Program-made: the position numbers and the translations under genes
Source: Hyphomicrobiales bacterium
Lineage (GTDB): Bacteria; Pseudomonadota; Alphaproteobacteria; Rhizobiales; Rhizobiaceae
Length of the DNA: 64,000 bases
Direction: 5' to 3'
Assembly: GCA_900466575.1 (NCBI GenBank)
Contig: UBMP01000012.1
Coordinates: 232,442 to 296,441 of the forward strand
Shown here: positions 8,938 to 22,887 of the stretch, in pieces
Numbering within the stretch: position 1 is the stretch's first letter
How the letters are laid out: each line of letters opens with the position of its first letter
The notes under the pieces: generated by a model
What the model was told of the DNA's origin: nothing
Seen by the model: only the letters and a program-made list of their open reading frames with translations
The model's database searches: none

Positions 8938-10421
8938 GCCGCGCGCTCCGACATCCAGAGACCGATCCGGGTCATGTCGACCTCCGCGCGTGAGACGAGA
9001 CCGGCGATGCGGCCGCCAGCGAGCACCGCAATCCGGTCGCCGACGGCAAGAACCTCTTCCAATTCCGACGAAATGTAGATGACCGCCGATCCGGCATCCC
9101 GCAGGGCGATCATGCGCTCGAGAACGAACCTGGTTGCACCTGGATCGAGACCCCAGGTCGGCTGATGGGCTACGAGAACGGCCGGCTGGCGTGCCAGCTC
9201 GCGCGCAATGACGATCTTCTGCTGATTGCCGCCGGAGAGGCTGCCCGCGAGAGTCTGTTCGGATGGGGCGCGGATATCGAACCGTTCCATCAGCGATCTT
9301 GCCTCCTTGCGCGTCGCTTCACGGTCAAGCAATCCGCCTTTGCTGAAGGGCTGCCTGTGGCTGTCGCGCAGCATGAGGTTTTCGGCGATCGTCATGCTTT
9401 TGACGAGAGCGGTGGTCGAGCGGTCGGCGGGCATGTAGGCAAGACCTGCCTCTGTGCGCCGCGCCGCCGTCGCGTGCGTGATCTCCGCGCCGTCCAGCGT
9501 AATCGCGCCGCTTTCCACGGGACGCAATCCTGCCAGCGTCTCGGCCAGCTCCAACTGACCATTCCCATCGACACCCGCGATGCCGAGGATTTCCCCGCCG
9601 CGAAGGCGGAGATCGAGCGGTCCAAGGTCCTGCGCCTTGAGCGCCCGGATATCGAGGCGGACCGCTCCGGCTGCTTTCGGTTCAACAGAGAGTGGCGCTG
9701 TGACGTCGCGACCGACCATCATTGCTGCGAGGCTTGCCTTGTCGGCGCCCGCGATGCCCGCCTTGCCTGCAACCTTGCCGGCGCGCAACACGACCACGCG
9801 GTCGCACACCTCAATCACCTCCGGCATCTTGTGGGTGATGAAAACGATGCCTTTGCCTTCGCTGCGCAGGCGACGCAGGATATTCAGCAGTTCGTTGATC
9901 TCGGAAGGTGCCAGGTTCGATGTCGGCTCGTCCAGGATCAAGAGATCCGCGTCGCGCAGTACCGCCTTGAGAATTTCGATACGCTGCCGCCGGCCAAGCG
10001 GCAGATCCGCCACACGCACGTCGGGGTCGAGATCAAGGCCAAGTCGTTCGCTCGCCTCGCGGATACGATCGGCGATGGTTCCGCGGCGCAACAACTTTCC
10101 CGCCTCCTCCCATCCCAGCATGATGTTCTCCAGCACAGTCATGGCTTCGACCAGCATGAAATGTTGATGGATCATCACGATGCCGGCCGCCATCGCCTCG
10201 CGCGGGCGGTGTCCGGAAAGCTCTCGCCCCTTGAAGACGATCCCCCCAGCATCCGGCTCGGTCATGCCGAAAAGAAGCTTCATCAGGGTGCTCTTGCCGG
10301 AGCCGTTTTCGCCGAGGAGTCCAACGATTTCGCCCGCGAACACGTCGAGATCGACGCCATCGTTCGCCCTGAGCGAACCATAGGTCTTCACCATCCCGCG
10401 CATTTCCAGAAGTGCTGCCAT
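8934..10421 (-). CDS. BMP-type ABC transporter ATPase (two nucleotide-binding domains)
   Basis: A 495-residue ATPase with tandem cassettes. The first has Walker A GLLGENGSGKSTLMK and Walker B LLILDEPTSNLAP. The second has a degenerate Walker A (GIAGVDGNGQLELAE) and the signature SLSGGNQQKIVIARELA. One intact and one degenerate site is usual in this family. It powers the two-permease channel at the inner membrane. The gene sits 64 bases downstream of the binding-protein gene, with a strong hairpin in the gap that could lower its expression relative to the binding protein. Confidence 0.93.
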   Translation of the reverse strand: MAALLEMRGMVKTYGSLRANDGVDLDVFAGEIVGLLGENGSGKSTLMKLLFGMTEPDAGGIVFKGRELSGHRPREAMAAGIVMIHQHFMLVEAMTVLENIMLGWEEAGKLLRRGTIADRIREASERLGLDLDPDVRVADLPLGRRQRIEILKAVLRDADLLILDEPTSNLAPSEINELLNILRRLRSEGKGIVFITHKMPEVIEVCDRVVVLRAGKVAGKAGIAGADKASLAAMMVGRDVTAPLSVEPKAAGAVRLDIRALKAQDLGPLDLRLRGGEILGIAGVDGNGQLELAETLAGLRPVESGAITLDGAEITHATAARRTEAGLAYMPADRSTTALVKSMTIAENLMLRDSHRQPFSKGGLLDREATRKEARSLMERFDIRAPSEQTLAGSLSGGNQQKIVIARELARQPAVLVAHQPTWGLDPGATRFVLERMIALRDAGSAVIYISSELEEVLAVGDRIAVLAGGRIAGLVSRAEVDMTRIGLWMSERAA

Positions 10422-10443
10422 TCTATCCTCGACATCATGTGAA

Positions 10444-10471
10444 CCGGAGCGCGATGTTCGCCGCGCTCCGG
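10444..10471 (-). promoter_or_regulatory. intercistronic hairpin between BMP binding protein and ATPase genes
   Basis: CCGGAGCGCG and CGCGCTCCGG form a perfect 10-bp stem around an 8-base loop, with no T run. Such hairpins after binding-protein genes often protect the upstream mRNA and limit read-through, making the binding protein more abundant than the membrane complex. That role is inferred from position. Confidence 0.55.
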
Positions 10472-10485
10472 CTATGTCCGGCGGC

Positions 10486-11505
10486 TTAGCTGCCGCTGCG
10501 TGCGTCCTGGTCCGTCGGGGTCACCTTGAGTTTGCCGGAGGCAAAATCGGCGGCCATGGCATCGACTTCCTTGGAGACCGCCTCGGGAACTGCCGGGCCA
10601 TAGGCCTTGTCGGCGCTGTATTTCAGCGAGGCGCCGGTCGTCTTGCCCGTGTCATAGCCATACTGCACGAAGGTGCCGAACAGCTTGCCGGCCTTGACGT
10701 CCTCGGCGGCGCTGCCGATCATCGACGGCCAGTCTTCGACGATGTTCGTCAGGACCAGATCCGGCGCGATCGCAGTCTGATCGAAACCGCGGCCGGTGAC
10801 GTAGACGTGCTTTTCCTTGGCGGCCTGAACGAGACCGGCCTCAGCGGCGTTCAGCTTGCCGGTCAGCACGTCTGCGCCCTTGGCGATGAGCGACAAGGCC
10901 GCTTCCTTGGTCTCGGCGGCGTCTTCCATGTCCTTGACGTAAAGGATCGTGACTTCGGCCCCGGCCTTTGCCGCGCACAGCCGGAAGGCACCGGCCTGGG
11001 CGGTGATGTTCGGCACGCCCTGAAGGCCGTAGATGCCGCCGACCTTGTGCGTCTTGCTCATCTTTGCGGCCAGCAGGCCGATCTGGCAGCCGAACTGCGC
11101 GTTGTTGTAGTCGATCGACATGACGTTGGGGGCGGCCCCCTCATTGCCGCTGACGGCGATGAACTGCGTCTTCGGGAAATCGGGCGCGACCTGTTCCATC
11201 GCAGAAACGAAACGGCCGGAATGTCCGAGCACGATCTTGTAGCCCTGGTTGGCGTAGTCGCGAACGGCCTCCGCTTCATCTGCATCGGCGACGTTTTCCG
11301 TATAGGCCGTCTTGAAGCCATGCGGTTCGAGGCTCTTGACGATCGCATAGCCGAGCGCGTTCCAGCTCTGGTCGTTTGCGCTGCCGGGGAGCAGGATGGC
11401 GGCCTTGTCTTCGGCAAGAGCGGAACCCGCAAATGCGGCGCTCGAGAGCATGAGTATAGCGCTGGCCGCCGACAGCCGCCGGCGGCTTGAAATCATTTTC
11501 ATCAT
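10486..11505 (-). CDS. BMP-family periplasmic substrate-binding protein
   Basis: A 339-residue protein with a Sec signal peptide (MMKMISSRRRLSAASAILML, likely cleaved after SALA). The mature part has the Bmp/PnrA fold: KAAILLPGSANDQSWNALGY at the first strand, and YKIVLGHSGRF and FIAVSGNEGA in the ligand cleft. Known members bind nucleosides, purines or similar ring compounds. It stands first in the ABC set and should capture the substrate in the periplasm. GAGGG lies about 12 bases upstream of the start. Ligand identity is inferred from the ring-opening enzyme encoded just upstream. Confidence 0.9.
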   Translation of the reverse strand: MMKMISSRRRLSAASAILMLSSAAFAGSALAEDKAAILLPGSANDQSWNALGYAIVKSLEPHGFKTAYTENVADADEAEAVRDYANQGYKIVLGHSGRFVSAMEQVAPDFPKTQFIAVSGNEGAAPNVMSIDYNNAQFGCQIGLLAAKMSKTHKVGGIYGLQGVPNITAQAGAFRLCAAKAGAEVTILYVKDMEDAAETKEAALSLIAKGADVLTGKLNAAEAGLVQAAKEKHVYVTGRGFDQTAIAPDLVLTNIVEDWPSMIGSAAEDVKAGKLFGTFVQYGYDTGKTTGASLKYSADKAYGPAVPEAVSKEVDAMAADFASGKLKVTPTDQDARSGS

Positions 11506-11601
11506 GGCGATAAACCCTCTGTCTGGTTTTTGTAGCTTGCTTCAGTAATCCGGCGCATATGCTTTCCCCATGCCTGCCGGCGGCTTGGGGGTCTGGGAGG
11601 A

Positions 11602-12696
11602 CTAGACTTCGACGATCACGGCAATGGGTGCTTCGCCGGGCTTGCATTGGTGTTCCGTGCCACCGGAGACGAAAATCCTCGGATCTCCGGTCACGGATGT
11701 GATCACCGCGCCCAGTGCCGCCCGCGCATGACGCTCGTAATTGATATCGGCATCCGAGAGCATCGTGGTCCGTGCGCCGCGCAACATGCCGCCGACCGGC
11801 GCTTCCGCCTTGGCAAAGACGGCCTTGACCGCGCTGACATCGATCGCGGCCTGTCCGGTGCTCCCACCCATTGCGTTGGCAATGGCGGCCCTGACGCCCT
11901 CCGCATCGGCCACGTCGCGCAAGATGCCATGGCCTATGCGCAGGCTCCCGCCTGCCTTTGCCGAGTTGCCGAACAGGATGATCTCGCAATTGCTCAGTTC
12001 GCCGCCGGCCGATGTATTGGCGACGGTGGAATAGAGATCCATGCGCTTGGCGATGACCTCGTCGCTCAAATCCGCCTCATCGACTTCGCCGAGTGCAAGG
12101 GCGACACCAAGAGCGGTTGCGCCGCGTGCATAGGGTTTCGAGCCGTTCGGATCGCTGGTGACCAGCTTGGCGCCGCGACGCTCTGCATCCGCAACGGCAG
12201 CGGGTGTCAGCAGCGGACCCTTGACCTGGACATAATGGACATCGCCCGCGTCCTCGATGGCGGCATCGGCGAGGGCTGCCCGCACCGCGGATGCCACTTC
12301 GTAAACTTCGGCCATCGTGCCGACCTCTTCAGGCGCGAAGTTGCGTGTGACAGCAATGCCGATCGAAAGGCGCTTTTCTCCGGCCGGCTCCGACTGGCTG
12401 CTGCGGGTAAAGACGGTGGCGTGCGGGCTGAGAACGCCCTCCGTCCCGCCGGACCAGACGAAGGCGATACGCTTCGTCACCGCGTCCGGGCTTATGCCGA
12501 GAAGACCGGAGAGCAGAAGCGAAAGCGACTGGGTCGCGAAGCCGCGGGTGAAGTCATTTGCGCCACCGTTGCCCTCTGTCTTGCCGATAAGCGCAACGAT
12601 CTCCTCAGCCTTGATTTCGCCCGCGTCGATCAGGCGCTGCAAATCCGACACGTCGCCTGGATTGTTCATTCTGATCTTGTGAACGCCGACGCGCAT
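11602..12696 (-). CDS. ring-opening amidohydrolase (cyanuric acid hydrolase / barbiturase family)
   Basis: A 364-residue member of the small AtzD/TrzD/barbiturase family, which hydrolyses cyclic imides by a Ser-Lys mechanism. It has KTEGNGGANDFTRGFA, AFVWSGGTEGVLSPHATVF, VQVKGPLLTPA, ANTSAGGEL and TMLSDADINYERHAR, matching the three repeated domains of the family, and it is full length. Cyanuric acid would give carboxybiuret and barbituric acid would give ureidomalonate; I cannot separate these activities by eye. AAGGAG lies 7-12 bases before the ATG. It is the promoter-proximal gene of a unit that continues into the BMP transporter and amidase, divergent from an IclR regulator, so it is probably substrate-induced. 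Confidence 0.9.
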   Translation of the reverse strand: MRVGVHKIRMNNPGDVSDLQRLIDAGEIKAEEIVALIGKTEGNGGANDFTRGFATQSLSLLLSGLLGISPDAVTKRIAFVWSGGTEGVLSPHATVFTRSSQSEPAGEKRLSIGIAVTRNFAPEEVGTMAEVYEVASAVRAALADAAIEDAGDVHYVQVKGPLLTPAAVADAERRGAKLVTSDPNGSKPYARGATALGVALALGEVDEADLSDEVIAKRMDLYSTVANTSAGGELSNCEIILFGNSAKAGGSLRIGHGILRDVADAEGVRAAIANAMGGSTGQAAIDVSAVKAVFAKAEAPVGGMLRGARTTMLSDADINYERHARAALGAVITSVTGDPRIFVSGGTEHQCKPGEAPIAVIVEV

Positions 12697-12755
12697 GGTG
12701 CTCTCCTTGTTTGTGCCTATATCTTATGCGTGACTAAATCCTGTGCAAGTTGGCT

Positions 12756-12784
12756 TGGAATAAATTTCACGATGTGGAATAAAT
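12756..12784. promoter_or_regulatory. candidate IclR-family operator
   Basis: TGGAATAAATTTCA (12756-12769) is an imperfect palindrome close to the TGGAA-N5-TTCCA pattern of classic IclR sites. A second TGGAATAAAT starts at 12775, 19 bases on. Both lie between the divergent ring-opening hydrolase and regulator genes, where autoregulation and control of the catabolic genes would be expected. Confidence 0.45.
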
Positions 12785-12829
12785 GGGGGCGCGGGGGAAC
12801 ACGATTATTTGAGCGGAAGATTGAATTCA

Positions 12830-13636
12830 ATGCAAAATCAAGAGCCTAAGGAAAGCGGCAGTGTGCAGTCCATCCACCGCGCGCTATCGATTCTGGAGCG
12901 TCTGGGAGAGTCGGATGACGGGCTTCCCCTCAAGGAAGTCGCCGCCCAGGCCGGGCTACCGCCGTCCAGCGCACATCGGATTCTCACAACATTGCAGCGC
13001 CAGAGGTTTGTTCGTTTCGATCAGGCAACCATGTGCTGGAGCGTCGGCGTGCAGGCCTTTGTCGTCGGCAACGCCTTTGCACGATCGCGCGATATGGTAT
13101 CGCTTGCCGTGCCGCTCATGCGCAGACTGATGCTTTCGACCGGCGAGACGGTCAATTTCTTCATGCTGGATGGCTCCGAGGTCGTCTGCATGGCGCAGGT
13201 TCAGAGCCAGCAGATGGTGCGCGCCATATCGCGGCCGGGCGGCGGTGCGGAGATGCATCGCTCGGCTGCCGGAAAGATGATCCTCGCCCACATGAGCGAC
13301 GATGAAGTGGCCGCCATCATCCAGAAAACCGGCATGACGCGCTATACCGAGCATACAATCATCACGCCCGATGCGCTGAAGAGCGAACTGCGCAAAATCC
13401 GGCAACGCGGATTTTCGGTCGACAACGAGGAGTTTTCCCTGGGGTTGCGCTGTATCGCGGCGCCCATTTACGACGAGGCTGGCATTGTCCACGCGGCCGT
13501 ATCGATTGCCGGTCCGTCATCCCGGATTTCGGAGGCGCGGGTGGAGGGTCTCGGCGAGATGGTCGCAAACTGCAGCAGGCTGATCACGTCGGAATTCGGC
13601 GGCTCGGCGCGAGAGATGGCGCCTCGCGTGCCTTGA
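12830..13636 (+). CDS. IclR-family transcriptional regulator
   Basis: A 268-residue protein with an N-terminal winged helix (SIHRALSILERLGESDDGLP, then PPSSAHRILTTLQ) and a C-terminal IclR effector domain (SRPGGGAEMHRSAAGKMILA, then FSLGLRCIAAPIYDEAGIV). IclR proteins bind a small-molecule ligand and repress or activate an adjacent catabolic operon. ATG 12830 follows GGAAGA by about 10 bases; an in-frame TTG lies at 12809. It diverges from the amidohydrolase-transporter unit, its likely target. Confidence 0.92.
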   Translation: MQNQEPKESGSVQSIHRALSILERLGESDDGLPLKEVAAQAGLPPSSAHRILTTLQRQRFVRFDQATMCWSVGVQAFVVGNAFARSRDMVSLAVPLMRRLMLSTGETVNFFMLDGSEVVCMAQVQSQQMVRAISRPGGGAEMHRSAAGKMILAHMSDDEVAAIIQKTGMTRYTEHTIITPDALKSELRKIRQRGFSVDNEEFSLGLRCIAAPIYDEAGIVHAAVSIAGPSSRISEARVEGLGEMVANCSRLITSEFGGSAREMAPRVP

Positions 13637-13773: not shown

Positions 13774-14625
13774 CTAAGCACTCTTCACGGCGTCGATGGC
13801 GTGCCGATAGTCGGTGAGTGTATCGGCGACGCGTGCCTGAAAGCTCTTGATGTCGCCCTCGAGGTCCCGTTCTATCTCCAGGAACCGGTCGATCAGCGCG
13901 GTCGCGACGATGACGCCATCCGCCACCTTGGCGACATCGGCGGCGAGTTCCGGTGTCTTCACGCCAAAGCCCACCATGACCGGAAGGCTTGACTGCCGCC
14001 GGCAGCGTTCCACGGCCTCGGCGATCACCTCCTTTGATGCGGAGGGACCACCAGTCGGCCCGACGACGGGAATGCAATAGAGAAATCCGCCGATTCCCGG
14101 CTTTTCGACCGCGAAATCGCGCGCCTCCAGCGTCGGTGCGGCGAGCGGGATCATGTAGAGCCCGTGTTTCGCCAGCGCCTTGACGAGATCGTCCGCCTCG
14201 CGCAACGGAAAGTCGGCGGCGATCAGTCCGTCGATCCCTGCCGCCGCCGCTGCTTCGGCGAAGCGCTCGTAGCCCATCGTAACCAGGGGATTGGAATAAC
14301 CCATCAGGATCAGCGGCGTGCGGTCGTCCGTCTCGCGAAAGGCGCGGCAGAGGTCGAGCGTGACACGCAGATTGCCGCCGGCCGCGAGCGCGCGCCTGTT
14401 CGCCTTCTGGATGGTCGCACCATCGAGAATGGGATCGGAGAAGGGGTGACCGATTTCGATCAGGTCGATGCCCGAGGCGGCGAAAGTTTTCAGCCGTGCA
14501 AGGCTTTCCTCGAAGCTCGGATCGGAGGCGACCGTGAAGGTCACGAAGGCCTTGCGGTTTTCCGTCCTGAGCCGGGCGAACATCGCGTCGATGCGGTTGA
14601 TGCGTTTCGGGTTGTGTTTCGCCAT
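13774..14625 (-). CDS. TrpA-like protein 1 (tryptophan synthase alpha paralogue)
   Basis: A 283-residue TIM-barrel protein clearly homologous to tryptophan synthase alpha. Both catalytic acids are kept: E57 in DLIEIGHPFSDP and D68 in ILDGATIQ, eleven residues apart as in TrpA. The phosphate-binding strands are recognisable (GFGVKTPE and VIVATALI). It is the last gene of a unit with a sugar ABC transporter, an FGGY kinase and a second TrpA paralogue rather than trpB-trpF, so a biosynthetic role is unlikely. Known TrpA splits indole-3-glycerol phosphate into indole and glyceraldehyde 3-phosphate. A retro-aldol cleavage of another phosphorylated polyol conjugate is a reasonable guess. Confidence 0.82.
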   Translation of the reverse strand: MAKHNPKRINRIDAMFARLRTENRKAFVTFTVASDPSFEESLARLKTFAASGIDLIEIGHPFSDPILDGATIQKANRRALAAGGNLRVTLDLCRAFRETDDRTPLILMGYSNPLVTMGYERFAEAAAAAGIDGLIAADFPLREADDLVKALAKHGLYMIPLAAPTLEARDFAVEKPGIGGFLYCIPVVGPTGGPSASKEVIAEAVERCRRQSSLPVMVGFGVKTPELAADVAKVADGVIVATALIDRFLEIERDLEGDIKSFQARVADTLTDYRHAIDAVKSA

Positions 14626-14626
14626 G

Positions 14627-15814
14627 TCACGCGTCCTGCCAGAGGATGTCGATGTCCTTGTCGCCGGAAGAGGGTGTCATCACGACGACGGCTTCATGCG
14701 GCTCCATGGTCCGGGCCACATGCTCGGCGGCGGCTAGAGCGTGACCGGCTTCCAGGCAGATGAGAACGCCTTCTGTTTCAGCGAGCCGCCGCACCGCGCG
14801 CTGCGCCTCGGCGTCGGTTGCTGTCATCGTTTCGACGCGGCCGCGCGAAACGAGATCCGCCAGCTGCGGCGCGGAACCCGGATAGGCGAGCCCCGGCGCA
14901 ATGGAATTGGCCGCCAGAATCTGCCCCTCCGCGTCAGCCAGAACCAGCGTCTCCGCGCCATGGAAGATGCCGCGCCGGCCCTGCGAAAGCCGCGCCGAAT
15001 TCGGCGCACCGCTTTCGCCCGAGCCGGCCGCCTCGACGGCAATCAGCCGGATCGAGGGATCGGAGACGAAGGAGGAGAAGAGGCCAACGGTCGACGATCC
15101 CCCACCGACGGCCGACAGCACCGCTGACGGCAGCACGCCACCTTCGACCAGCTGCAGCCGCGTTTCCTTGCCGATCACCTGTTGGAAGGCCGCGACCATT
15201 TCCGGATAGGGATGCGGCCCGATCGGCGCGCCGGCGACATAGGCATCGGTATCGGAATGCCCCATCCAGTGGCGGATGGCGGCACTTGTCGCCGAACTCA
15301 GCGCGCGGTCTGCATCTTCCACAATTTCGAGCTTCGCGCCGAAAAGCCGCATCTTCTTGACCGCCTGCGGCTGGGCTGCCGCATCGCGCGCGCCCATGTA
15401 GATCGTGCAGCGCATGCCGAAGCGGGCGGCCACGGCGGCCGTGGCAATACCATTCTGGCCGGACCCCGTGTCGGTCACGACGGCCGACAGGCCCATGCGG
15501 CGGGCGAGAAGGCATTGGCCCACCGCCGAGTTGGCATAATTGCCGCCGTTGAAGGTCAGGTCATCGCGCTTCAGCACGATGCGCGCACCGCCCGGACGGC
15601 TTGGAAAGGCCGGGATGTCGAAGAGCGGCGTCGGCCGGCCGACGAAGCGGTTCAGCAGATGCGTCAGTTCCGCGTGAAAGGCCGGATCGCCCCAGGCACT
15701 GTGGAAACCGGCTTCCAGCCGGTCGAGCACAGGCAGGAGAACGGGGGCGACGAACTGTCCGCCGAAGGACCCGTAACGGCCGGGGCGGCTTTCGACCTTC
15801 AATGCACGCGCCAT
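14627..15814 (-). CDS. TrpB-like fold-type II protein lacking the PLP lysine
   Basis: A 395-residue protein that aligns along its length with tryptophan synthase beta: RYGSFGGQFVAPVLLPVLD, RPTPLFD, LKRDDLTFNGG, GSGQNGIATAAVAARFGM, GGGSS and SSGDKDIDIL. The residues needed for PLP chemistry are changed. The lysine of GAHKIN is Y93 (GGNYAN), the catalytic glutamate of AETGAGQ is D115, the aspartate of GLDYPG is A310 (GLAYPG), and the serine of SGRGDKD is P381. The phosphate loop and E355 remain. No other lysine sits in the motif. It starts two bases before the permease stop and runs into the TrpA-like gene. It may be a structural partner of TrpA-like proteins or an enzyme with new chemistry. 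Confidence 0.82.
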   Translation of the reverse strand: MARALKVESRPGRYGSFGGQFVAPVLLPVLDRLEAGFHSAWGDPAFHAELTHLLNRFVGRPTPLFDIPAFPSRPGGARIVLKRDDLTFNGGNYANSAVGQCLLARRMGLSAVVTDTGSGQNGIATAAVAARFGMRCTIYMGARDAAAQPQAVKKMRLFGAKLEIVEDADRALSSATSAAIRHWMGHSDTDAYVAGAPIGPHPYPEMVAAFQQVIGKETRLQLVEGGVLPSAVLSAVGGGSSTVGLFSSFVSDPSIRLIAVEAAGSGESGAPNSARLSQGRRGIFHGAETLVLADAEGQILAANSIAPGLAYPGSAPQLADLVSRGRVETMTATDAEAQRAVRRLAETEGVLICLEAGHALAAAEHVARTMEPHEAVVVMTPSSGDKDIDILWQDA

Positions 15815-15816
15815 GG

Positions 15817-16749
15817 TCAGGCTCCCTGCTTGCCGGCACGGCGGACGAGAACAGCCGCCAGAATGATCGTGCCGGTGATGATGTCCTGCAGGAAGGTCGA
15901 GACGCCGAGGATGGTCAGCCCGTTGCCGATGACGGCGATGATGGCCGCACCCACCAGCGTGCCGGGCACGTTGGCCTCGCCCTCGCGAAACGCCGTCATG
16001 CCGAGGAAGACGGCGGCATAAGCCGAGAGCAGATAGCCTCCGCCACCCGTCGGATTGGCCGAGCCGATGCGGGCTGTGAGCAGAATACCGACGAGCGCGG
16101 AGAGCACGGCGCTGACGATGAAGGCGAACATCGTGTTGGGCACGATGCGCACGCCGGCAAGGCGCGCCGCCTCGCGGTTGCCGCCGATAGCATAAAGCCG
16201 CCGTCCGATCTCGACCTTGTCGAGGATGATCCAGGCGCAGGCGGCAACGCCAATCAGCCACCAGGTCAGCGTCGGCAGGCCGAGCATCGTGCCGCGCCCG
16301 ATATCGCGGAAGCCGCCCGGAATATCGCCGAACAGCGTCGCCCCCTCGCAAAGCCAGAAGGTGATGCCGCCAATGATCGTGCCGACGGCAAGCGTTGCGA
16401 TGAAGGAAAGCACTTCGAAGCGCGAGACCACGAAGCCGGAGACCGCGCCGAAGACGGCAGCGGCAGCCAGAACGGCAAGGCAGGCAAGCGGGGCGGGGAC
16501 GCCGGCCTTGAACAGGAAGACGACAAGAATGCCGCCGAAAGAGACGATGGACGCGGTCGAAAGGTCGAATTCGCCCACCGCCATCACGACAGTCGCGCCA
16601 ATTGCGACGATGGCGAGCAGCGTCATCTGCTGCGTGATGTTGATGAGATTGCTCGGCGAGCCGAAAGCATCGGGCGAGGCGATGGAGAAGGCGATGATGA
16701 TCGCGATGAGGGCGGCGAGCGTGCCGAAACGTCTGACGAAACCGGTCAT
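15817..16749 (-). CDS. sugar ABC transporter permease (RbsC/XylH family)
   Basis: A 310-residue membrane protein with about 9-10 helices and the family motif VVMAVGEFDLSTASIVSFGG (the DLS of RbsC-type permeases), then YAIGGNREAARLAGV in the coupling loop. It should homodimerise in the inner membrane as the channel of a ribose-type importer. The start overlaps the ATPase stop by four bases (16746-16749), and the TrpB-like gene follows after two bases. The substrate is unknown. Confidence 0.92.
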   Translation of the reverse strand: MTGFVRRFGTLAALIAIIIAFSIASPDAFGSPSNLINITQQMTLLAIVAIGATVVMAVGEFDLSTASIVSFGGILVVFLFKAGVPAPLACLAVLAAAAVFGAVSGFVVSRFEVLSFIATLAVGTIIGGITFWLCEGATLFGDIPGGFRDIGRGTMLGLPTLTWWLIGVAACAWIILDKVEIGRRLYAIGGNREAARLAGVRIVPNTMFAFIVSAVLSALVGILLTARIGSANPTGGGGYLLSAYAAVFLGMTAFREGEANVPGTLVGAAIIAVIGNGLTILGVSTFLQDIITGTIILAAVLVRRAGKQGA

Positions 16750-18266
16750 GCTGCGGGGTCTTTCCGTGACTGATGTTGGAATGCGGCGTCGATGATGCGC
16801 GCCGGCGTGAGGGAGGAGCCGGAGAGTTCGGCGGTGATCTCGCCGCCGGCGAGAACGAGGACGCGGTTGGCAAGCGCCAGCAGTTCGTCCATGTCGGATG
16901 TTGTCATGAGGACGGCCGCGCCCTCGTCGGCAAAGCGGCGGGCGACGGCGTGAATTTCGGCCTTGGCGCCGACATCGACACCGCGCGTCGGCTCATCGAG
17001 GATGAGAAGGCGGATCGGTCGGCCGAACCAGCGGCCGAAGAGAAGCTTCTGCTGGTTGCCGCCCGAAAGCGTCAGCGGCTTGGCAAAGGCCGAGCCCATC
17101 TTGACCGATAGCGCCGCCTTGACCTCTTCGGCGCGCCGCCTCAGGGCGGCGAGGCCAACCCAGGGCAGCGATGGTGCAACACGCACGGCCTTGAGATTGG
17201 CGATGGCGAGGTTTTCCGCGATGGTCCGGCTGACGATCAGGCCCTCATGGCGGCGATCTTCCGGAACATAGGCGCCGCCGGCAGCGATCCGGTCGCCGAT
17301 ATGGCCCGGCCGCAACGCCCGGCCTTCGAGCGTGATCGTGCCTTCGCGATGGGACGTCGCGCCCCAGACGATCTTCATGAGCGAGGAACGTCCCGCACCC
17401 ACAAGCCCGTAAAGCCCGAGAATTTCCCCCGCCTTGATCTCGAAGGAGATGCGCGAACCGTGGTCGCCGAAGGGTAGATCGGAGACCTTGAGCGCAACCG
17501 GGCTTCTCGCCGGTGTCGGCCGGGCGATCAGCTCGGCCTCTTCACGGCCCGACATGAGTCGCACCAGGCCGGGGCGATCAATGTCGGAAACGTCGCCCGC
17601 TCCCGCCGTCACGCCGTTGCGCAGCACGGTATAGCGGTCGCAGATCTCCATCACCTCATCCAGCCGGTGCGAGATGAAGATGACGGCCACCCCGCGCTCG
17701 GCCAGCCGGCGGACAGCCTTGTGCAGGCGGCGCGCCTCGCCATCGGAAAGCGAGGCCGTCGGTTCGTCCATCACGACCAGTCGTGCTGGCTCGCCGATCA
17801 GCGCACGGATGATTTCGACCAGCTGCTTCTGCCCGGTGGTCAGCCGTGCGGCAGGCACGTCGAGCGGCAGATCGGGAGCGATGTCGCGGGCCGTCTCCGC
17901 AATCGCGCGGGCCATCGCGGCCCGGTCGATGAAGGGGCCGCGTTTCGGATAGGCGCGGCCGACAAAGGCGTTCTCGACCGCCGTGAAATGCGGAACGAGG
18001 CTCAGTTCCTGATGGATGAAGCGGAAGCCGAGCTCTTCGGCATGGCGGACGCTTTCGATGCTCGCGGGCTTCCCGTCGATGAGAATCTCACCGGCATCGG
18101 GCGTCACGAGGCCGGACAGCGTCTTGATCAGCGTCGACTTACCCGCGCCGTTTTCGCCGAGCAGGCCGTGAACGGAGCCGGCGGCGACCTCGATATTGGC
18201 ACCGCCAAGTGCGCGCGCGCCGCCATAGCGCTTTTCAAGCGCCTTGATGCTGAGCAACATGGTCAT
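16746..18266 (-). CDS. sugar ABC transporter ATPase (RbsA/MglA family)
   Basis: A 506-residue ATPase with two cassettes. The first has GLLGENGAGKSTLIKTLSG and LVVMDEPTASLS. The second has GLYGLVGAGRSSLMKIVWG and LSGGNQQKLLFGRW, with LLILDEPTRGVD. This two-domain layout is typical of importers for pentoses, hexoses and AI-2. It energises the RbsC-type permease encoded next to it. An 11-bp hairpin separates it from the binding-protein gene. A second ATG six bases downstream (18260) is an alternative start. Confidence 0.94.
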   Translation of the reverse strand: MTMLLSIKALEKRYGGARALGGANIEVAAGSVHGLLGENGAGKSTLIKTLSGLVTPDAGEILIDGKPASIESVRHAEELGFRFIHQELSLVPHFTAVENAFVGRAYPKRGPFIDRAAMARAIAETARDIAPDLPLDVPAARLTTGQKQLVEIIRALIGEPARLVVMDEPTASLSDGEARRLHKAVRRLAERGVAVIFISHRLDEVMEICDRYTVLRNGVTAGAGDVSDIDRPGLVRLMSGREEAELIARPTPARSPVALKVSDLPFGDHGSRISFEIKAGEILGLYGLVGAGRSSLMKIVWGATSHREGTITLEGRALRPGHIGDRIAAGGAYVPEDRRHEGLIVSRTIAENLAIANLKAVRVAPSLPWVGLAALRRRAEEVKAALSVKMGSAFAKPLTLSGGNQQKLLFGRWFGRPIRLLILDEPTRGVDVGAKAEIHAVARRFADEGAAVLMTTSDMDELLALANRVLVLAGGEITAELSGSSLTPARIIDAAFQHQSRKDPAA

Positions 18267-18284
18267 AATTCCAGTGAAGAGGGA

Positions 18285-18312
18285 TGGCCGCCCCGTTCAG
18301 GCGGAGCGGCCA
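18285..18312 (-). promoter_or_regulatory. intercistronic hairpin between sugar-binding protein and ATPase genes
   Basis: TGGCCGCCCCG and CGGAGCGGCCA pair over 11 bp (one G-T pair on the transcript) around a 6-base loop, with no T run. The position directly after the binding-protein stop suggests mRNA stabilisation or partial termination, as seen in the BMP operon of this window. Confidence 0.5.
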
Positions 18313-18322
18313 GATATCTCGC

Positions 18323-19240
18323 TCAGGGGCACTTCACGCCGAGCGTTTCCGGCGTGATCATGACAGCCGGAACATACATTTCGTCGCTGTCGGCCTTGCC
18401 GCCCTTCAGGATCTTGTCGAGCTGTTCGGCGCCCAGCGTCGCCATCTTCGGGAAGTCCTGACGGAAGGTCGCCTTGTAATGCGTGCAGGACTTGATCATG
18501 TCGACCGCCTGCGCGTTGCCGTCGATGCCCATGATGATGAGCTTGGACTTCGGCAGTTCGGATTCGGTTGCCAGTTCGGCGCCGATGCCCGGATCGTCGA
18601 AGGCGGCCCAGACGCCGTCGATCTTGTCGCCGTGCTGGCGCAGGATGTTTTCCATCGCAACGCGGCCATCATCGACCGGGCCGGGAACCTTTACGAAGTG
18701 GTCGGCAATCACCTTGATGTCCGGGTATTTCTTCAGCGTGGCGTCCAGGCCGAGTTCGCGCTGGTGCACGCCCGGATGGGCGGAATGGAAGAACTTCACG
18801 ATATTGCCCTTGCCGCCCATCGCCTTGAACAGCGCCTCAGAGAGCTGCGTGCCGAGCTCGAAATTGTTCGACGTCACGTTGACGGCGACGTTGGCGCGCT
18901 TCGACCCGTCGAGTGAGATCACCGGGATGCCGGCCTTGGCGGCCATGTCCACCTGATCGCCCACCTGGCCCGGATCGGTCGAGATGAGCACGATGGCGTT
19001 CGCTTTGGCGTTCACCGTGTCTTCCATGCGCGAGGCGAGCTGGCCGAAATCGTTGCGGGTGTCGATGATCGTCACCTTCCAGCCGCGCTTCTCGCCTTCG
19101 GCCTTGAAGCTCTGCGCCATCTCGTTGGTCGGGATGGAGCTGATATAGGGCGTGAGAATGGTCACGTCTGTGGCGAAGGCGGCGGTGGAGCCGGCCAGCG
19201 ACAGCGCCAGCGCTGCAAGGGTCATTCTGATGGATTTCAT
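18323..19240 (-). CDS. periplasmic sugar-binding protein (RbsB family)
   Basis: A 305-residue protein with a signal peptide (MKSIRMTLAALALSLAGS, likely cut before ATDV). The mature part shows the Peripla_BP_4 pattern: TDVTILTPYISSIPTNEMAQ, AIVLISTDPGQVGDQVDMA, GIPVISLDG and GVWAAFDDPGIGA. GAGAGGAAC lies 6-14 bases before ATG 19240, so this start is preferred over one ten codons upstream. It captures the ligand for the RbsC/RbsA-type importer. The ligand is unknown; sugars, polyols or sugar conjugates are typical. Confidence 0.9.
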   Translation of the reverse strand: MKSIRMTLAALALSLAGSTAAFATDVTILTPYISSIPTNEMAQSFKAEGEKRGWKVTIIDTRNDFGQLASRMEDTVNAKANAIVLISTDPGQVGDQVDMAAKAGIPVISLDGSKRANVAVNVTSNNFELGTQLSEALFKAMGGKGNIVKFFHSAHPGVHQRELGLDATLKKYPDIKVIADHFVKVPGPVDDGRVAMENILRQHGDKIDGVWAAFDDPGIGAELATESELPKSKLIIMGIDGNAQAVDMIKSCTHYKATFRQDFPKMATLGAEQLDKILKGGKADSDEMYVPAVMITPETLGVKCP

Positions 19241-19282
19241 GGGACTGTTCCTCTCGTCTTGTTGGTTCATTTCCTGAGCGCT

Positions 19283-20758
19283 TTAGCGGTGCGGCTCGCC
19301 CGTCTCGATGATCCCGAGCGGCTTCAGCGCGTCGATGGCCTTCAGATAGGCCTCGAACATGCGGTCGTAACGCTGCTTTCGCTTGGGATCGGGTTCGAAA
19401 ATCGTCTGCACCGAGGTCATGGCCGGCACGGCCTCGGCAATGGTCTGGAACGCGCCGACGCCGACGGCGGCCATGATGGCGGCGCCGAGGCACCCGACGT
19501 CATTATAGCTGAAACGGTGCAGCGGCACGCCGAGGCAATCCGCGCGGATCTGGCTCCAGAGATCGGAGCGCGCGCCACCACCGCCATAGAGCAGCCAGTC
19601 CGGCCGGTAGCCGGCGGCCTCCGTCAGCGCATTGAAGAGATGCCGTGCCGAGAGCGCGACGCCTTCCATGACGGCCAGCGCGAATTCCGGTCCGCCGGTG
19701 CGGCTGTCGAGCCCGATGAAGGAGCCGCGAATGTCGGCATCCCAGAGCGGTGCGCGCTCGCCCTCCAGATGCGGCAGGAAGAGAACGGGCCGGCCGTCGC
19801 GATCTGCCTTGCCGGCCAGTTCGGCAACATCGCCCGGCTCGATTCCGACCGTGTTGCTCCACCAGCGCAGCGAATCCGCCCCGCTCTGCGTCGGACCGGC
19901 ATTGACGACAAGACCATCCACTGTCGCGAAGGTGACGACGCCCGGCGCGCCGATGCGCTGCGATCCGGCCAGCGCCAGGATTTCGCTGGTGCCGCTGACA
20001 TACATGCCCTGGCCGGGTTTGAAGACGCCGCAGCCGAAGAGGTTGCCCCAGGCATCCATGGTGCCGACGGTCACGGGCACCCGCCGTGCATGGCTGCCGA
20101 GCTGCATCTCGCCGGCGATGTCGGTAAAGAAACGCAGCGGTGGCAATCGCTCGGCGGCCCCATCGACCCGCGAAATCAGTGGCTCGATATAGGTGAGGTC
20201 GAGGCCGACATGGCCGAAGGAGGCGATGGGGTCCGCAACCGCCGCGCCGGTCAGCCGAAGAAGGCAATAGTCCTTCGGCGACAGCACGTAACGCGTCTTC
20301 TCCCAGAGGTCGGGATGATGCTTCTGGAACCACATCATCTTGGCGAGCGCATGGCTCGCGCCCACAGGCATCTCCGCGCCCCACCAGGCCTGCTTGTCGG
20401 CCGGCGAAATGGCGCGATCGAGCGCTTCCGCTTCGCGGGCAGCACGCACGTCCTGCCAGACGATGGCGGGGGCCAGCGGCTCGCCATTTGCGTCGACGAA
20501 GACGTCGGTGTTGACCTGGCTGCAAAGCCCGACGGCGACGACGCGTTCGGGGTCGCGCCCGACGAGAAGCCCGTCGATGGCATCGCGCACGCCGTCCAGC
20601 CAGTCCTGCGGGTTCTGTTCGACGAGGCCGGGGCCAGGCCGGGCGGTTGGGTAATTGCGGCTCCAGTGATCGACCACGTCGCCGGCAAGCGTGAAGAGCC
20701 CGGCCTTGACGGCGGTCGAACCGATATCGAACCCGATCACATAGGCATCGTCACGCAT
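19283..20758 (-). CDS. FGGY-family carbohydrate kinase
   Basis: A 491-residue sugar kinase of the xylulokinase/glycerol kinase superfamily. The ATP-binding segment YVIGFDIGSTAVKAGLF is N-terminal. The catalytic aspartate is D235 in VTVGTMDAWGNLFG. The C-terminal signature region reads WLLYGGGGARSDLWSQI. It phosphorylates a sugar or polyol in the cytoplasm after uptake by the adjacent importer. The start lies inside the end of the second TrpA-like gene (8-base overlap), which argues that kinase and TrpA-like protein act together. The substrate cannot be read from sequence. Confidence 0.92.
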   Translation of the reverse strand: MRDDAYVIGFDIGSTAVKAGLFTLAGDVVDHWSRNYPTARPGPGLVEQNPQDWLDGVRDAIDGLLVGRDPERVVAVGLCSQVNTDVFVDANGEPLAPAIVWQDVRAAREAEALDRAISPADKQAWWGAEMPVGASHALAKMMWFQKHHPDLWEKTRYVLSPKDYCLLRLTGAAVADPIASFGHVGLDLTYIEPLISRVDGAAERLPPLRFFTDIAGEMQLGSHARRVPVTVGTMDAWGNLFGCGVFKPGQGMYVSGTSEILALAGSQRIGAPGVVTFATVDGLVVNAGPTQSGADSLRWWSNTVGIEPGDVAELAGKADRDGRPVLFLPHLEGERAPLWDADIRGSFIGLDSRTGGPEFALAVMEGVALSARHLFNALTEAAGYRPDWLLYGGGGARSDLWSQIRADCLGVPLHRFSYNDVGCLGAAIMAAVGVGAFQTIAEAVPAMTSVQTIFEPDPKRKQRYDRMFEAYLKAIDALKPLGIIETGEPHR

Positions 20759-21542
20759 CGAGGCCGCTCCTCAGGTCGTGAAGCAGCGCCTGGAGTTCGT
20801 CCGACCCTGAAAGGGCGGCGCGCAGCACCTGCGAGCCAACCACGACGCCATCGGCATCGAGATCGCAGGCTTCTCGGGCCTGCGCGCCGTTGGAGATGCC
20901 GAAGCCGAGAAGGATGGGGGCCGTGACGCCGGCCGCCCTGAGGCTGGCAATCCTTGCGGCATTGCCGGGATCGACATCCTTGCGCGGCCCGGTCGGGCCG
21001 TCATTCGATTGTAGCATGACATAGAATTCAGCCTGCCGCGCTCGCGCCATGCCGTCGGCGCTCAGCGGCAGGGGCAGGAACGCAGACGGCGAAACGCCTG
21101 CCGCGACCGCAGAGTTTTCCAGCCTTGCAGCCAGCGGATCGCCTTCGTGGGCAACTACGAGAAGGCTATCGAGCCCGCGCCAGAGACCGCTATCGGCAAA
21201 GGCCGGATGCGCTTCATCGGCGTAAGTCATCAGAAGCGTGCGCGGTGGATCGCGAAACCGTGAAAGCCGGTCGAACACCGCATCGAGATCGCGGCGCCAG
21301 GAGGCGCGATCGGCGCGCGCCATCGAGGCGCGGACATCGGCGCCATCCAGAAACGGTTCGGCCGAGGTCATGCCGATCTCGATCACATCGACGCCTTCTC
21401 CGGCGTAGGTGTCCAGGAGTTCCACGGGAACGGCCGGATCGCCCAGCGGAAAATAGCAGCTCAACAGCGACTTTCCGGTTAGCGCGGCAAATCGCGCGTC
21501 TCGTCTTGATGTGGCGGTTTCCGTCGGCATGTCTTTCATCAT
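20751..21542 (-). CDS. TrpA-like protein 2 (tryptophan synthase alpha paralogue)
   Basis: A 263-residue TIM barrel related to TrpA but more diverged than the first copy. The catalytic acids are kept with the same spacing: E55 in VDVIEIGMTS and D66 in PFLDGADV. The phosphate-binding region reads ILLGFGISNGAQ and GVVVGSQVL. It is the first gene of the importer-kinase unit and overlaps the kinase by eight bases. Two TrpA copies with a TrpB-like protein suggest either two steps with similar chemistry or a hetero-complex. The start may be a few codons later (MPTETATS). Confidence 0.78.
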   Translation of the reverse strand: MMKDMPTETATSRRDARFAALTGKSLLSCYFPLGDPAVPVELLDTYAGEGVDVIEIGMTSAEPFLDGADVRASMARADRASWRRDLDAVFDRLSRFRDPPRTLLMTYADEAHPAFADSGLWRGLDSLLVVAHEGDPLAARLENSAVAAGVSPSAFLPLPLSADGMARARQAEFYVMLQSNDGPTGPRKDVDPGNAARIASLRAAGVTAPILLGFGISNGAQAREACDLDADGVVVGSQVLRAALSGSDELQALLHDLRSGLDA

Positions 21543-21672
21543 TCCATATGCATCGCTCTATGTGGCGGCGACGGGAGGAAGATGAAACAAGGTCATCGAA
21601 TTGTCATGTCCGAAGATGCACCGAACCGGGCGGTCGAAAGACAATTCTGCAGGATGTGGATAGTGGGGTCGC

Positions 21673-22695
21673 TCAGTGGCGGTTCGCGGCATCCGCCGAG
21701 GGCAGCACGCCAAAGAAATCGCGGTAGGCGGAGGAGAACCGGCCCAGATGCCGGAAGCCCGCCCGACTTGCCGCCTCGGCCACGGTCAGGCCTTCCGTCC
21801 TGATCAGGCTGCGTGCCTTTTCCATTCGAATACGGGTCAGCATGTCATAGGGGCTGGTCTGGTAGAACCGCTGGAAGCCTTCATAGAGCGCGCGCTCGGA
21901 AACCCCCATTTCCTCCGCGATGTCGGGAATGGAGAGCCGCTCTCCGAAGCGTGCATGGAAGAGTTCCAGCGCGCGCTTCACATGCCGCGGCGTTGCCGTC
22001 ACGCGCTCGGGCACCACGGTGCCGCCCTTCACAAAGGGGATATTGCCGATGAGAAGGTCAACGATGCGGTTGGTCAGTGCATCGCGGCGGATGATATCGG
22101 CCTGCTCGGGTACCGCAAAATCCCGTGCAAGTGCATTGAACATCGAAACGAGCTGCCGGCCATGGCTGGTGCGGAGATCGACAACCGGATTGAACACCGG
22201 CATGTCATTGATATTGCGGTGTGTGAGGCGGGTGAACCGCTCTTCCATCCGCTCCGCTTCGATCTGCAGCATCCATTGCCGTGTGTTCGCGCGCCAGCGG
22301 GAACGGAACTTCGGTCCCGGCGACAGAAGCAGCGCCTTGCCCGGGCTGGAGCGGATGTCGTCTGCCCCATAGGATATTTCGACACCGCCGGTGAGCGGCA
22401 TTTCCAGCATGTAGAACCGGTCGAACCCGTCTGAGCGAACTTCGATGTCGGTGCCGTATTCGAGGCTGTTGAACGCACCGGTCGGGATGGACAGACCCAT
22501 ATGTCGCATGCCGACGCGGTTGCCGGACAGAGCCTCCAACCGATGGCTGCAGAACGTATGCGTCATGTAGTGCTCCGCCTCCAGCGGATCACTCGCCACG
22601 TAGCTGATGACACTCCCCTCGGCCAGCATGCTTCCCGATCTGCAGTCCGTTGCACCCATCGGCGGTCTCAAGATGAACCTGCCTTGCTTCCACAT
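21673..22695 (-). CDS. AraC-family regulator with AraC_binding_2-type sensor domain
   Basis: A 340-residue protein with a cupin-like N-terminal sensor domain (FYMLEMPLTGGVEISYGADD, LLLSPGPKF) and two C-terminal helix-turn-helix motifs (RLSIPDIAEEMGVSERALYE, then GLTVAEAASRAGFRHLGRFS). It is encoded just upstream of and on the same strand as the TrpA-like/kinase/importer unit, with a 130-base gap that probably holds the operon promoter. It is the likely ligand-dependent activator of that unit. ATG 22695 is chosen; a TTG at 22743 would extend it. Confidence 0.87.
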   Translation of the reverse strand: MWKQGRFILRPPMGATDCRSGSMLAEGSVISYVASDPLEAEHYMTHTFCSHRLEALSGNRVGMRHMGLSIPTGAFNSLEYGTDIEVRSDGFDRFYMLEMPLTGGVEISYGADDIRSSPGKALLLSPGPKFRSRWRANTRQWMLQIEAERMEERFTRLTHRNINDMPVFNPVVDLRTSHGRQLVSMFNALARDFAVPEQADIIRRDALTNRIVDLLIGNIPFVKGGTVVPERVTATPRHVKRALELFHARFGERLSIPDIAEEMGVSERALYEGFQRFYQTSPYDMLTRIRMEKARSLIRTEGLTVAEAASRAGFRHLGRFSSAYRDFFGVLPSADAANRH

Positions 22696-22887
22696 TGAAA
22701 GCACAGTGGGCCGCAAAACACAATCAGACCGGACCCGCCCCAAAATTGACGTCCTGAGGCAGGCGCCTCTTCAAGTCTGGAACAGAGGCTGGAAGACCTT
22801 CCACCTGTACTGCCAGGGAACCATCCCGGGCTGGTGCTGTTAGGGCGACCGACGAGTGGCGCAGCCAGAATGGTCAGGAGACAGATG

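Follow-up and report, generated by a model that had tools for sequence, protein, structure and literature searches.

An importer-kinase operon with two TrpA-family genes and a TrpB paralogue lacking Lys87: a candidate route for the catabolism of an indolyl polyol

The operon and its genomic setting

We analysed a stretch of 64,000 nucleotides (nt) from Hyphomicrobiales bacterium (Rhizobiaceae; assembly GCA_900466575.1, contig UBMP01000012.1, positions 232,442-296,441 of the forward strand; this whole stretch is referred to as the window), which carries an operon of eight genes on the minus strand (22743-13774). In the order of transcription, they encode an AraC-type regulator, a divergent TrpA-family protein (TrpA2), an FGGY-family kinase, the RbsB-, RbsA- and RbsC-like components of an ATP-binding cassette (ABC) importer, a TrpB paralogue (TrpB') and a second TrpA paralogue (TrpA1). 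All eight were located as described in a first-pass annotation of this DNA, which had reported seven tightly spaced or overlapping genes on one strand with an AraC regulator at the head; the gaps from AraC to TrpA1 range from -8 to 130 nt (130, -8, 12, 56, -4, 2 and 1 nt). The parts of the operon belong to known families, as assigned with Pfam and NCBIfam, and PF00290 is matched by two of the genes (230.4 and 70.4 bits).

The genome (5.1 Mb, 44 contigs) contains three TrpA-family genes, the strongest of which is found on contig C35 in the canonical order trpB-trpA-accD (accD named by eye). The window's TrpB', TrpA1 and TrpA2 are thus extra paralogues, and the possibility that the operon is the tryptophan operon of this genome was ruled out by the genes at G000:C35 (G000 is the window's own genome). 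The first-pass annotation had named, as a finding that would speak against its pathway, that the operon might hold the only trpBA of the genome, which is not the case. TrpB' and TrpA1 are each 41% identical to the canonical TrpB and TrpA of the same genome. Canonical trpBA and the operon have in common an adjacent TrpB-TrpA pair (here TrpB'-TrpA1), but the operon lacks the catalytic Lys87 (residue numbers of TrpA and TrpB follow alignments to the E. coli K-12 reference), contains the additional TrpA2 as well as the importer and the kinase, and coexists with a separate canonical trpBA.

Two TrpA-family proteins, one of them similar to BX1

TrpA1 (13774..14625, minus strand, like all operon genes; PF00290, TIGR00262), encoded 1 nt after TrpB', matches TIGR00262 with 206.3 bits (cut-off 102.35). 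All ten orthologues retain Glu49, Asp60, Tyr175, Thr183 and Gly184, together with Pro53, Phe54, Asp56 and Asp130, which we take to be the residues of TrpA that contact TrpB. TrpA2 (20751..21542; PF00290) reaches 74.3 bits, i.e. less than the same NCBIfam trpA cut-off of 102.35. Its 14 orthologues uniformly exhibit Glu49, Thr183, Gly184, Gly213, Gly234 and Ser235, and 13 of them have Asp60, the residue that serves the ring NH; the remaining one has Glu, which is also found at this position in 6/69 canonical TrpA sequences. Among the presumed TrpB contacts, Pro53, Phe54 and Asp130 occur in 0/14 and Asp56 in 9/14 TrpA2 sequences, and TrpA2 would be independent of a TrpB partner, in line with the four genomes described below that carry TrpA2 and have no TrpB'.

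The search of the PDB with the TrpA2 profile reported maize BX1 as the best match (1tjr, score: 115.3 bits; 1rd5, score: 114.5 bits), followed by an ancestral TrpA (5ey5, score: 99.3 bits) and by natural TrpA structures (scores up to 88.1 bits); with the single TrpA2 sequence of the window as a query BX1 was also the first, by a small margin (66.8 vs 61.3 bits). The idea that BX1 would head the list for every TrpA from such bacteria was rejected, as 1tjr ranked 10th for the genome's own canonical TrpA (158.2 vs 251.2 bits) and 33rd for TrpA1 (105.4 vs 209.7 bits). The TGPR motif in loop 6, as in BX1, is present in 11/14 TrpA2 sequences, compared with 0/69 canonical TrpA and 0/10 TrpA1. The predicted structural model of TrpA2 (predicted local distance difference test, pLDDT, 91.1) identified 1tjr as the top Foldseek match, with 27% identity in the alignment, a ranking that is weak alone because many TrpA chains follow closely.

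By these comparisons, TrpA2 resembles BX1 more closely than it does bacterial TrpA. The two share the TrpA fold, Glu49/Asp60, the TGPR loop 6 and, probably, independence of TrpB, but TrpA2 differs in having Met or Phe in place of Tyr175, in being encoded within an importer-kinase operon, and in that its lyase activity is a prediction. PMC11574760 reports that transfer of the BX1 loop 6 greatly raises the activity of standalone TrpA. In PMC9100643, the tryptophan synthase alpha subunit (TSA) of C. glutamicum is described as a bona fide lyase of indole-3-glycerol phosphate (IGP) without TrpB, and an attenuated E. coli TrpB engineered to activate TrpA and to release indole is cited; thus, neither property is unheard of. 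However, C. glutamicum TrpA is a biosynthetic subunit and the attenuated TrpB a product of engineering, whereas the operon comprises natural paralogues in an importer-kinase context.

A TrpB paralogue without the Schiff-base lysine

TrpB' (14627..15814; PF00291, TIGR00263) exceeds the TIGR00263 cut-off of 392.45 just slightly (408.6 bits). Since the scores of TrpA1 and of TrpB' both exceed the NCBIfam thresholds, such genes may be annotated as tryptophan synthase, and a pathway of the kind discussed below would easily be missed. The Schiff-base Lys87 is replaced by Tyr in 10/10 TrpB' sequences, against Lys in 81/81 canonical TrpB recovered; Glu109 is replaced by Asp in 9/10 (Glu in 1/10), and Asp305 by Ala in seven and Ser in three, while all 81 canonical sequences have Glu and Asp, respectively. 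Other fixed changes are His86Asn, His115Asn and Asn236Ser, and the GGGS phosphate loop and Glu350 are retained. The term "lysine-less" used for this protein in the first-pass annotation is hence accurate for position 87 but not for the rest of the chain, where other lysines are present, three of them invariant across the 10 orthologues and two of these three also in all canonical TrpB. A shifted Schiff-base lysine was considered and rejected, as the only invariant lysine specific to TrpB' is residue 154, which falls near E. coli position 148 and not at Lys87.

Among 26 positions that we take to form the TrpB pocket, 20 are invariant in TrpB', compared with 166/354 other aligned positions (p=0.0026), and a new set of residues has become fixed there (Asn86, Tyr87, Ser112, Asn115, Ala188, Ala190 and Ser236). 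A pocket rebuilt in this manner and largely invariant may mean that TrpB' still binds or converts something. TrpB' is under purifying selection: between the window and the corresponding locus of its congener (L112) the ratio of nonsynonymous to synonymous substitution rates (dN/dS) is 0.027, the lowest of the eight operon genes (TrpA1: 0.11; TrpA2: 0.096). This value and the open reading frame in 10 genomes rule out a decaying pseudogene. In the phylogenetic trees TrpB', TrpA1 and TrpA2 form one clade each, with support of 1.0 and long stems; the TrpB tree comprised sampled prokaryotic TrpB, without plant sequences. The AlphaFold2 model of TrpB' (7 orthologues) had a mean pLDDT of 50.5 and was not used.

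A functional parallel proposed for TrpB' is the plant TSB-like protein, a noncatalytic TrpB paralogue with two residues changed, which activates TSA and frees indole (PMC12727527). By our reading of the equivalences, the counterparts of Glu109 and Asp305 are altered in both proteins, but to different residues: the changes reported for the plant protein are Glu to Ala and Asp to Glu, and TrpB' has mostly Asp and Ala/Ser, respectively. TrpB' differs further in the loss of Lys87 itself and in being bacterial, operonic and putatively catabolic; it does not look like a descendant of plant TSB carrying the two specific substitutions, since its own substitutions differ and it forms a separate clade in a tree of sampled prokaryotic TrpB that contained no plant sequences. 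Activation of the alpha subunit by a noncatalytic TrpB has been shown for the plant protein, and for the TrpA1-TrpB' pair it is proposed here. According to PMC9512447, the beta reaction requires Lys87, and in the Lys87Thr variant external aldimines yield closed alpha-R/beta-R complexes; it is therefore plausible that a TrpB lacking Lys87 could occupy the activating state.

Conservation of the operon in a long and a short form

A scan of the contigs of the genomes for TrpB' yielded, among the best 80 of 133 loci, 7 with 67-97% identity and 73 with at most 48%, the latter of which we read as canonical TrpB. At all 7 close loci tblastn searches with the window's proteins revealed the seven structural genes, arranged as in the window. 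Together with those found via TrpA2, ten genomes carry this long form: that of the window, G310 from the same genus (L112/L018), Martelella mediterranea (L019), G563 (L111), "Marinicella" W31 (L024), Phaeobacter (L020), Pacificibacter (L021), the Ancalomicrobiaceae metagenome-assembled genome G282 (L022/L017), G450 (L109) and Devosia (L023). The comparison of cluster order across genomes, proposed in the first-pass annotation, thus revealed an arrangement that is not due to chance, because it recurs in 10 genomes with mostly different flanks. An order conserved in no relative, the other finding that the first-pass annotation had named as speaking against its pathway, is thereby also not the case. 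The AraC gene is upstream in 9/10 carriers, the exception being M. mediterranea. In "Marinicella sp. W31" (L024 4283-9072), the FGGY and RbsA genes are split into several frames and the N-terminus of RbsB is apparently out of frame, while the frames of TrpA2, RbsC, TrpB' and TrpA1 are open, which may reflect a sequencing error or decay; this genome has no IndA (see below).

Four other genomes (G405, G566, G513 and G360) possess a short form without TrpB' and TrpA1. In G566 and G513 the order is AraC-TrpA2-FGGY-RbsB-RbsA-RbsC and the cluster ends after RbsC, whereas in G360 the contig end falls inside RbsA. G405 has TrpA2-FGGY-RbsB-RbsA-RbsC with no adjacent AraC (L110 6262-12228); its importer and kinase are 81-90% identical to those of the window (FGGY 86%, RbsB 90%), and the absence of TrpB', TrpA1 and AraC is apparently a recent loss. 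A convergent gluconokinase-like gene (by eye) follows RbsC in this locus. Searches across the entire assemblies of the four short-form genomes found one TrpB each (42-43% identical to TrpB') and one TrpA (41-43% to TrpA1), which we read as the canonical ones, and the same search of the long-form genomes G310, G563, G282 and G450 found both kinds of TrpB and of TrpA. TrpB' and TrpA1 are thus jointly present (10/10) or jointly absent (4 genomes), so that the core of the system consists of TrpA2, the kinase and the importer, and TrpB' and TrpA1 appear to be accessory and to be gained or lost together.

The system is rare. In the sample of the window's family (taken as Rhizobiaceae) TrpA2 was identified in 8/297 genomes (E<=1e-30), and in the sample of the order, also of 297 genomes, 12 had a match at 1e-15; the true relatives among these are G000 and G282 alone, and the remaining ten exhibit 31-36% identity. 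The TrpA2 profile reported its own genome alone at E<=1e-35 in the class (385 genomes) and phylum (398 genomes) samples, where scoring was limited to the six best candidates of each genome and absence is therefore not strict. Searches of plasmids retrieved 30 records with TrpA2 (22.9-33.5% identity) and 122 with TrpB' (all below 60%, the 40 listed at 41.8-44.4%), which we read as canonical TrpA and TrpB, respectively.

Linkage to a putative indole monooxygenase module

In two genera (L109 and L111) genes encoding a flavin reductase, a short-chain dehydrogenase/reductase (SDR) and a StyA-like monooxygenase (IndA) are positioned directly upstream of the AraC gene and in the same direction, with gaps of 27, -4 and 51 nt in L109 and of 27, 29 and 114 nt in L111, the flavin reductase of L111 having been assigned via its similarity to that of L109. 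In a third genus, Pacificibacter (L021), the cluster is flanked by divergent genes for IndA and for an SDR that falls into the same NCBIfam subfamily as that of the linked module; IndA and TrpA2 share a contig there and are ~3.3 kb apart. The best structural match of the L109 monooxygenase is 7z4x (616.7 bits; styrene monooxygenase StyA, 3ihm: 143 bits), which we take to be the indole monooxygenase VpIndA1; that enzyme is reportedly named in Kratky et al. 2023, a citation in which the PDB code itself is absent. The published fingerprint of indole monooxygenases (group E) is S46-Q48-M50-V/I73-I76-A96 (PMC13101512). Its S-Q-M part is conserved in all 7 IndA proteins recovered of 9, A96 could not be placed, and in the IndA of the window's own genome the V and I positions fit by manual count. 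The indole monooxygenase also aligns, over almost the entire length and with 518.8 bits, to the PDB chain 9lrq_A, whose molecule name, "Alanine-phosphoribitol ligase", is probably wrong.

IndA was identified in 8/10 long-form genomes (E<=1e-20, with all matches in carriers at 2e-162 or better) and in the short-form genome G405. For comparison, at E<=1e-120 it occurs in 21/289 (7%) of the other genomes in the sample of the window's family and in 9/247 (4%) of the other genomes in the family of Pacificibacter, backgrounds that cover these two families. Within the window's family, 5/8 TrpA2 carriers have IndA, vs the 21/289 others (Fisher p=1.6e-4), and by genus the ratio is 4/6 vs 11/103 (p=0.003), both values being uncorrected for kinship. 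In G377, G512 and G409 the IndA homologues contain one in-frame stop in the match and are possibly inactive.

The same combination of a StyA-like monooxygenase, a flavin reductase and an SDR is found in clusters for the degradation or oxidation of indole, i.e. iif of Acinetobacter (PMC4577076) and the GS cluster of Providencia (PMC9871250). Those clusters begin from free indole, whereas in the present case the importer, the kinase and the TrpA lyases would precede this step. In the window's own genome, the module (reductase, SDR, IndA and a divergent AraC) is encoded on contig C28 (L152, G000:C28:356000-374000), a few kb from genes for a 771-aa flavoprotein, an SDR and a RidA-like protein (names by eye). 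These surroundings resemble those of a bifunctional salicylyl-CoA 5-hydroxylase/oxidoreductase gene on an annotated Alloyangia plasmid (L159), which has an SDR, a monooxygenase, a flavin reductase and AraC beside it. The neighbourhood of module and flavoprotein suggests that the ring might be further processed by a 2-aminobenzoyl-CoA route.

Regulator, kinase and importer

The AraC/XylS-type regulator (21673..22743, with an in-frame ATG at 22695, from which the first-pass annotation counted) comprises AraC_binding_2 and HTH_18, the same pair of Pfam domains as reported for IifR, which responds to indole; its nearest NCBIfam model is AndR, with a score (132.7 bits) far under the cut-off of 350. 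The FGGY-family carbohydrate kinase (19283..20758; FGGY_N, PF00370: 110.5 bits; FGGY_C, PF02782: 112.8 bits), whose start overlaps the stop of TrpA2 by 8 nt, is XylB-like, with 263.4 bits against a XylB cut-off of 380.25, and does not reach any equivalog cut-off. The importer consists of the RbsB-like periplasmic binding protein (18323..19270; Peripla_BP_4), the RbsA-like sugar ABC transporter ATPase (16746..18266; ABC_tran) and the RbsC-like permease (15817..16749; BPD_transp_2). Comparison of 14 orthologues of the binding protein with E. coli RbsB, at residues presumed to contact the ligand, revealed that all 14 retain Asp89, Arg141, Asp215 and Gln235, while Phe15, Phe16 and Arg90 are replaced in 14/14, as is Phe164, around which the alignment has gaps, and Asn190 corresponds to Phe in 11 and Trp in 3 of the sequences. 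These residues would fit a ligand with hydroxyls and a flat part, without singling out one compound.

A candidate catabolic pathway and its alternatives

We propose, with a confidence a shade above even, that the operon is catabolic for an indolyl polyol, the simplest of which is indole-3-glycerol. The RbsB/A/C-type importer would take up indole-3-glycerol, i.e. dephosphorylated IGP, the FGGY kinase would phosphorylate its terminal hydroxyl to give IGP, and TrpA2, as a standalone BX1-like lyase, would carry out the retro-aldol cleavage to indole and glyceraldehyde-3-phosphate, the latter of which would enter glycolysis. In the long form TrpA1, complexed with TrpB', would be a second lyase for the same cleavage; TrpB' without Lys87 would make no tryptophan but hold TrpA1 in the active state and release indole, like the plant TSB-like pseudoenzyme. 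Indole would then be oxidised by the IndA/flavin reductase/SDR module, whose genes would be next to the operon or at another site of the genome, and the AraC-type protein would presumably regulate the operon. The first-pass annotation had suggested import, phosphorylation and TrpA-type retro-aldol cleavage of a polyol conjugate by a route that uses every gene. Such a route fits all our findings and has gained support because the module is conserved, the catalytic and phosphate-binding residues of TrpA are kept, the match to BX1 is specific to TrpA2, and an IndA module is linked; the part that did not stand is the use of every gene, given the four genomes without TrpB' and TrpA1. That interpretation is thus partly supported, and it now appears better focused on indole, as the physical linkage to the monooxygenase module favours indole-glycerol among the candidate substrates.

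Several observations weigh against this proposal. We found nothing in the open-access literature on the availability of indole-3-glycerol in the habitat. In TrpA1, Gly234 is replaced by Ala in 10/10 sequences (Ala also occurs in 10/69 canonical TrpA), and in TrpA2 Tyr175 is not conserved, as noted above. The fixed new residues in the TrpB' pocket suggest more than a loss of function, and the dN/dS of TrpB' is mid-range in wider pairs (0.147 for L019-L111 and 0.128 for window-L111). IndA was not detected at E<=1e-20 in the long-form genomes G282 (metagenome-assembled) and G968 nor in the short-form G360, G566 and G513; thus indole is not always oxidised via IndA, or the leaving group differs. 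Conversely, TrpA2 is present in none of the nine other IndA-bearing genomes of the family of Pacificibacter, so IndA needs no operon, and in the window's own genome IndA resides on a different contig from the operon. Within the window's genus, IndA occurs in 5/6 genomes and TrpA2 in 2/6, so relatedness inflates the co-occurrence p-values; the adjacency in three genera carries more weight.

The same logic might apply to another aryl group, with a substituted indole or an aryl- or heteroaryl-glycerol as the substrate and IndA either handling a related ring or being loosely associated, which we regard as unlikely yet worth keeping in view. Asp60, kept in both TrpA families, favours a ring bearing NH or OH and not indole specifically, and the changes in the pocket of TrpA1 (Ala59Leu, Ile52His/Tyr, Gly234Ala) and at Tyr175 of TrpA2 would agree with a different ring, as would the lack of IndA in three short-form genomes; the physical linkage of an indole monooxygenase module in three genera and BX1 as the nearest solved relative of TrpA2 argue for indole. 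It is improbable, in our view, that TrpA-like aldolases act here on a phosphorylated ketose or polyol devoid of an aromatic ring, in plain sugar catabolism to which IndA would be coincidental. The pairing of an RbsABC-type importer and a XylB-like kinase is indeed typical of sugar utilisation, and the binding protein retains four RbsB residues, but Phe15, Phe16 and Arg90 are replaced, an aromatic residue occupies the position of Asn190, and such a scheme would leave both the statistical association with IndA and its adjacency in three genera without a role.

Instead of being a pseudoenzyme, TrpB' could be an active enzyme with a new chemistry on the product of TrpA1, independent of pyridoxal 5'-phosphate (PLP) or using it non-covalently. 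The former PLP pocket is more conserved than the rest of the protein and has a new fixed set of residues, and between the two closest genomes no operon gene has a lower dN/dS. We nonetheless consider this rather unlikely, given the plant precedent for a noncatalytic role derived from TrpB, the lack of a new invariant lysine at Lys87, and the short form that manages without TrpB'. Salvage, in which excreted indole-3-glycerol would be recycled to tryptophan via the canonical TrpB, appears very improbable: a canonical-type TrpB is indeed present in the window's own genome and in all 8 other carriers tested, but the importer and the kinase would suffice for this purpose, because canonical TrpAB already uses IGP, and the linkage of IndA points to degradation of the ring.

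Returning to the catabolism of an indolyl polyol, we hold it an even question whether the operon represents a broader novelty, namely carbon catabolism via the alpha reaction of tryptophan synthase with two TrpA-derived lyases, one standalone and BX1-like and the other driven by a TrpB without Lys87 that evolved, separately from plants, into an allosteric activator or a new PLP-independent enzyme whose remodelled pocket is strictly conserved. We found no description of a catabolic TrpA/TrpB' operon or of indole-glycerol catabolism in the open-access literature. If the proposal is correct, an enzyme complex that ranks among the best studied would acquire a catabolic use, and the counterparts of plant TSB-like and BX1 would be available in one bacterial operon, where they are likely easier to study. 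It would also imply that indole-3-glycerol or a close indolyl polyol is an environmental nutrient, and show that TrpB can survive under selection after the loss of the PLP lysine.

Genes adjoining the clusters

At 7882-13636, next to the operon, the window encodes an amidohydrolase (11602-12696) that belongs to the ring-opening cyanuric acid/barbiturase family and matches AtzD with 441.5 bits. Together with a BhcR/IclR-like regulator (12809-13636) and, by eye, ABC genes and a BMP-like binding protein, it looks like a separate cluster for the utilisation of N-heterocycles. These AtzD, BMP and IclR genes were considered as members of the pathway and rejected, as they have no match in the stretches examined around the clusters of other carriers, some of which extend just a few kb beyond it. 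In G360 (L106 7264-13542), the region upstream of the short-form genes contains a second RbsA/RbsC-type transporter together with a hydantoinase A/B-like pair (by eye).

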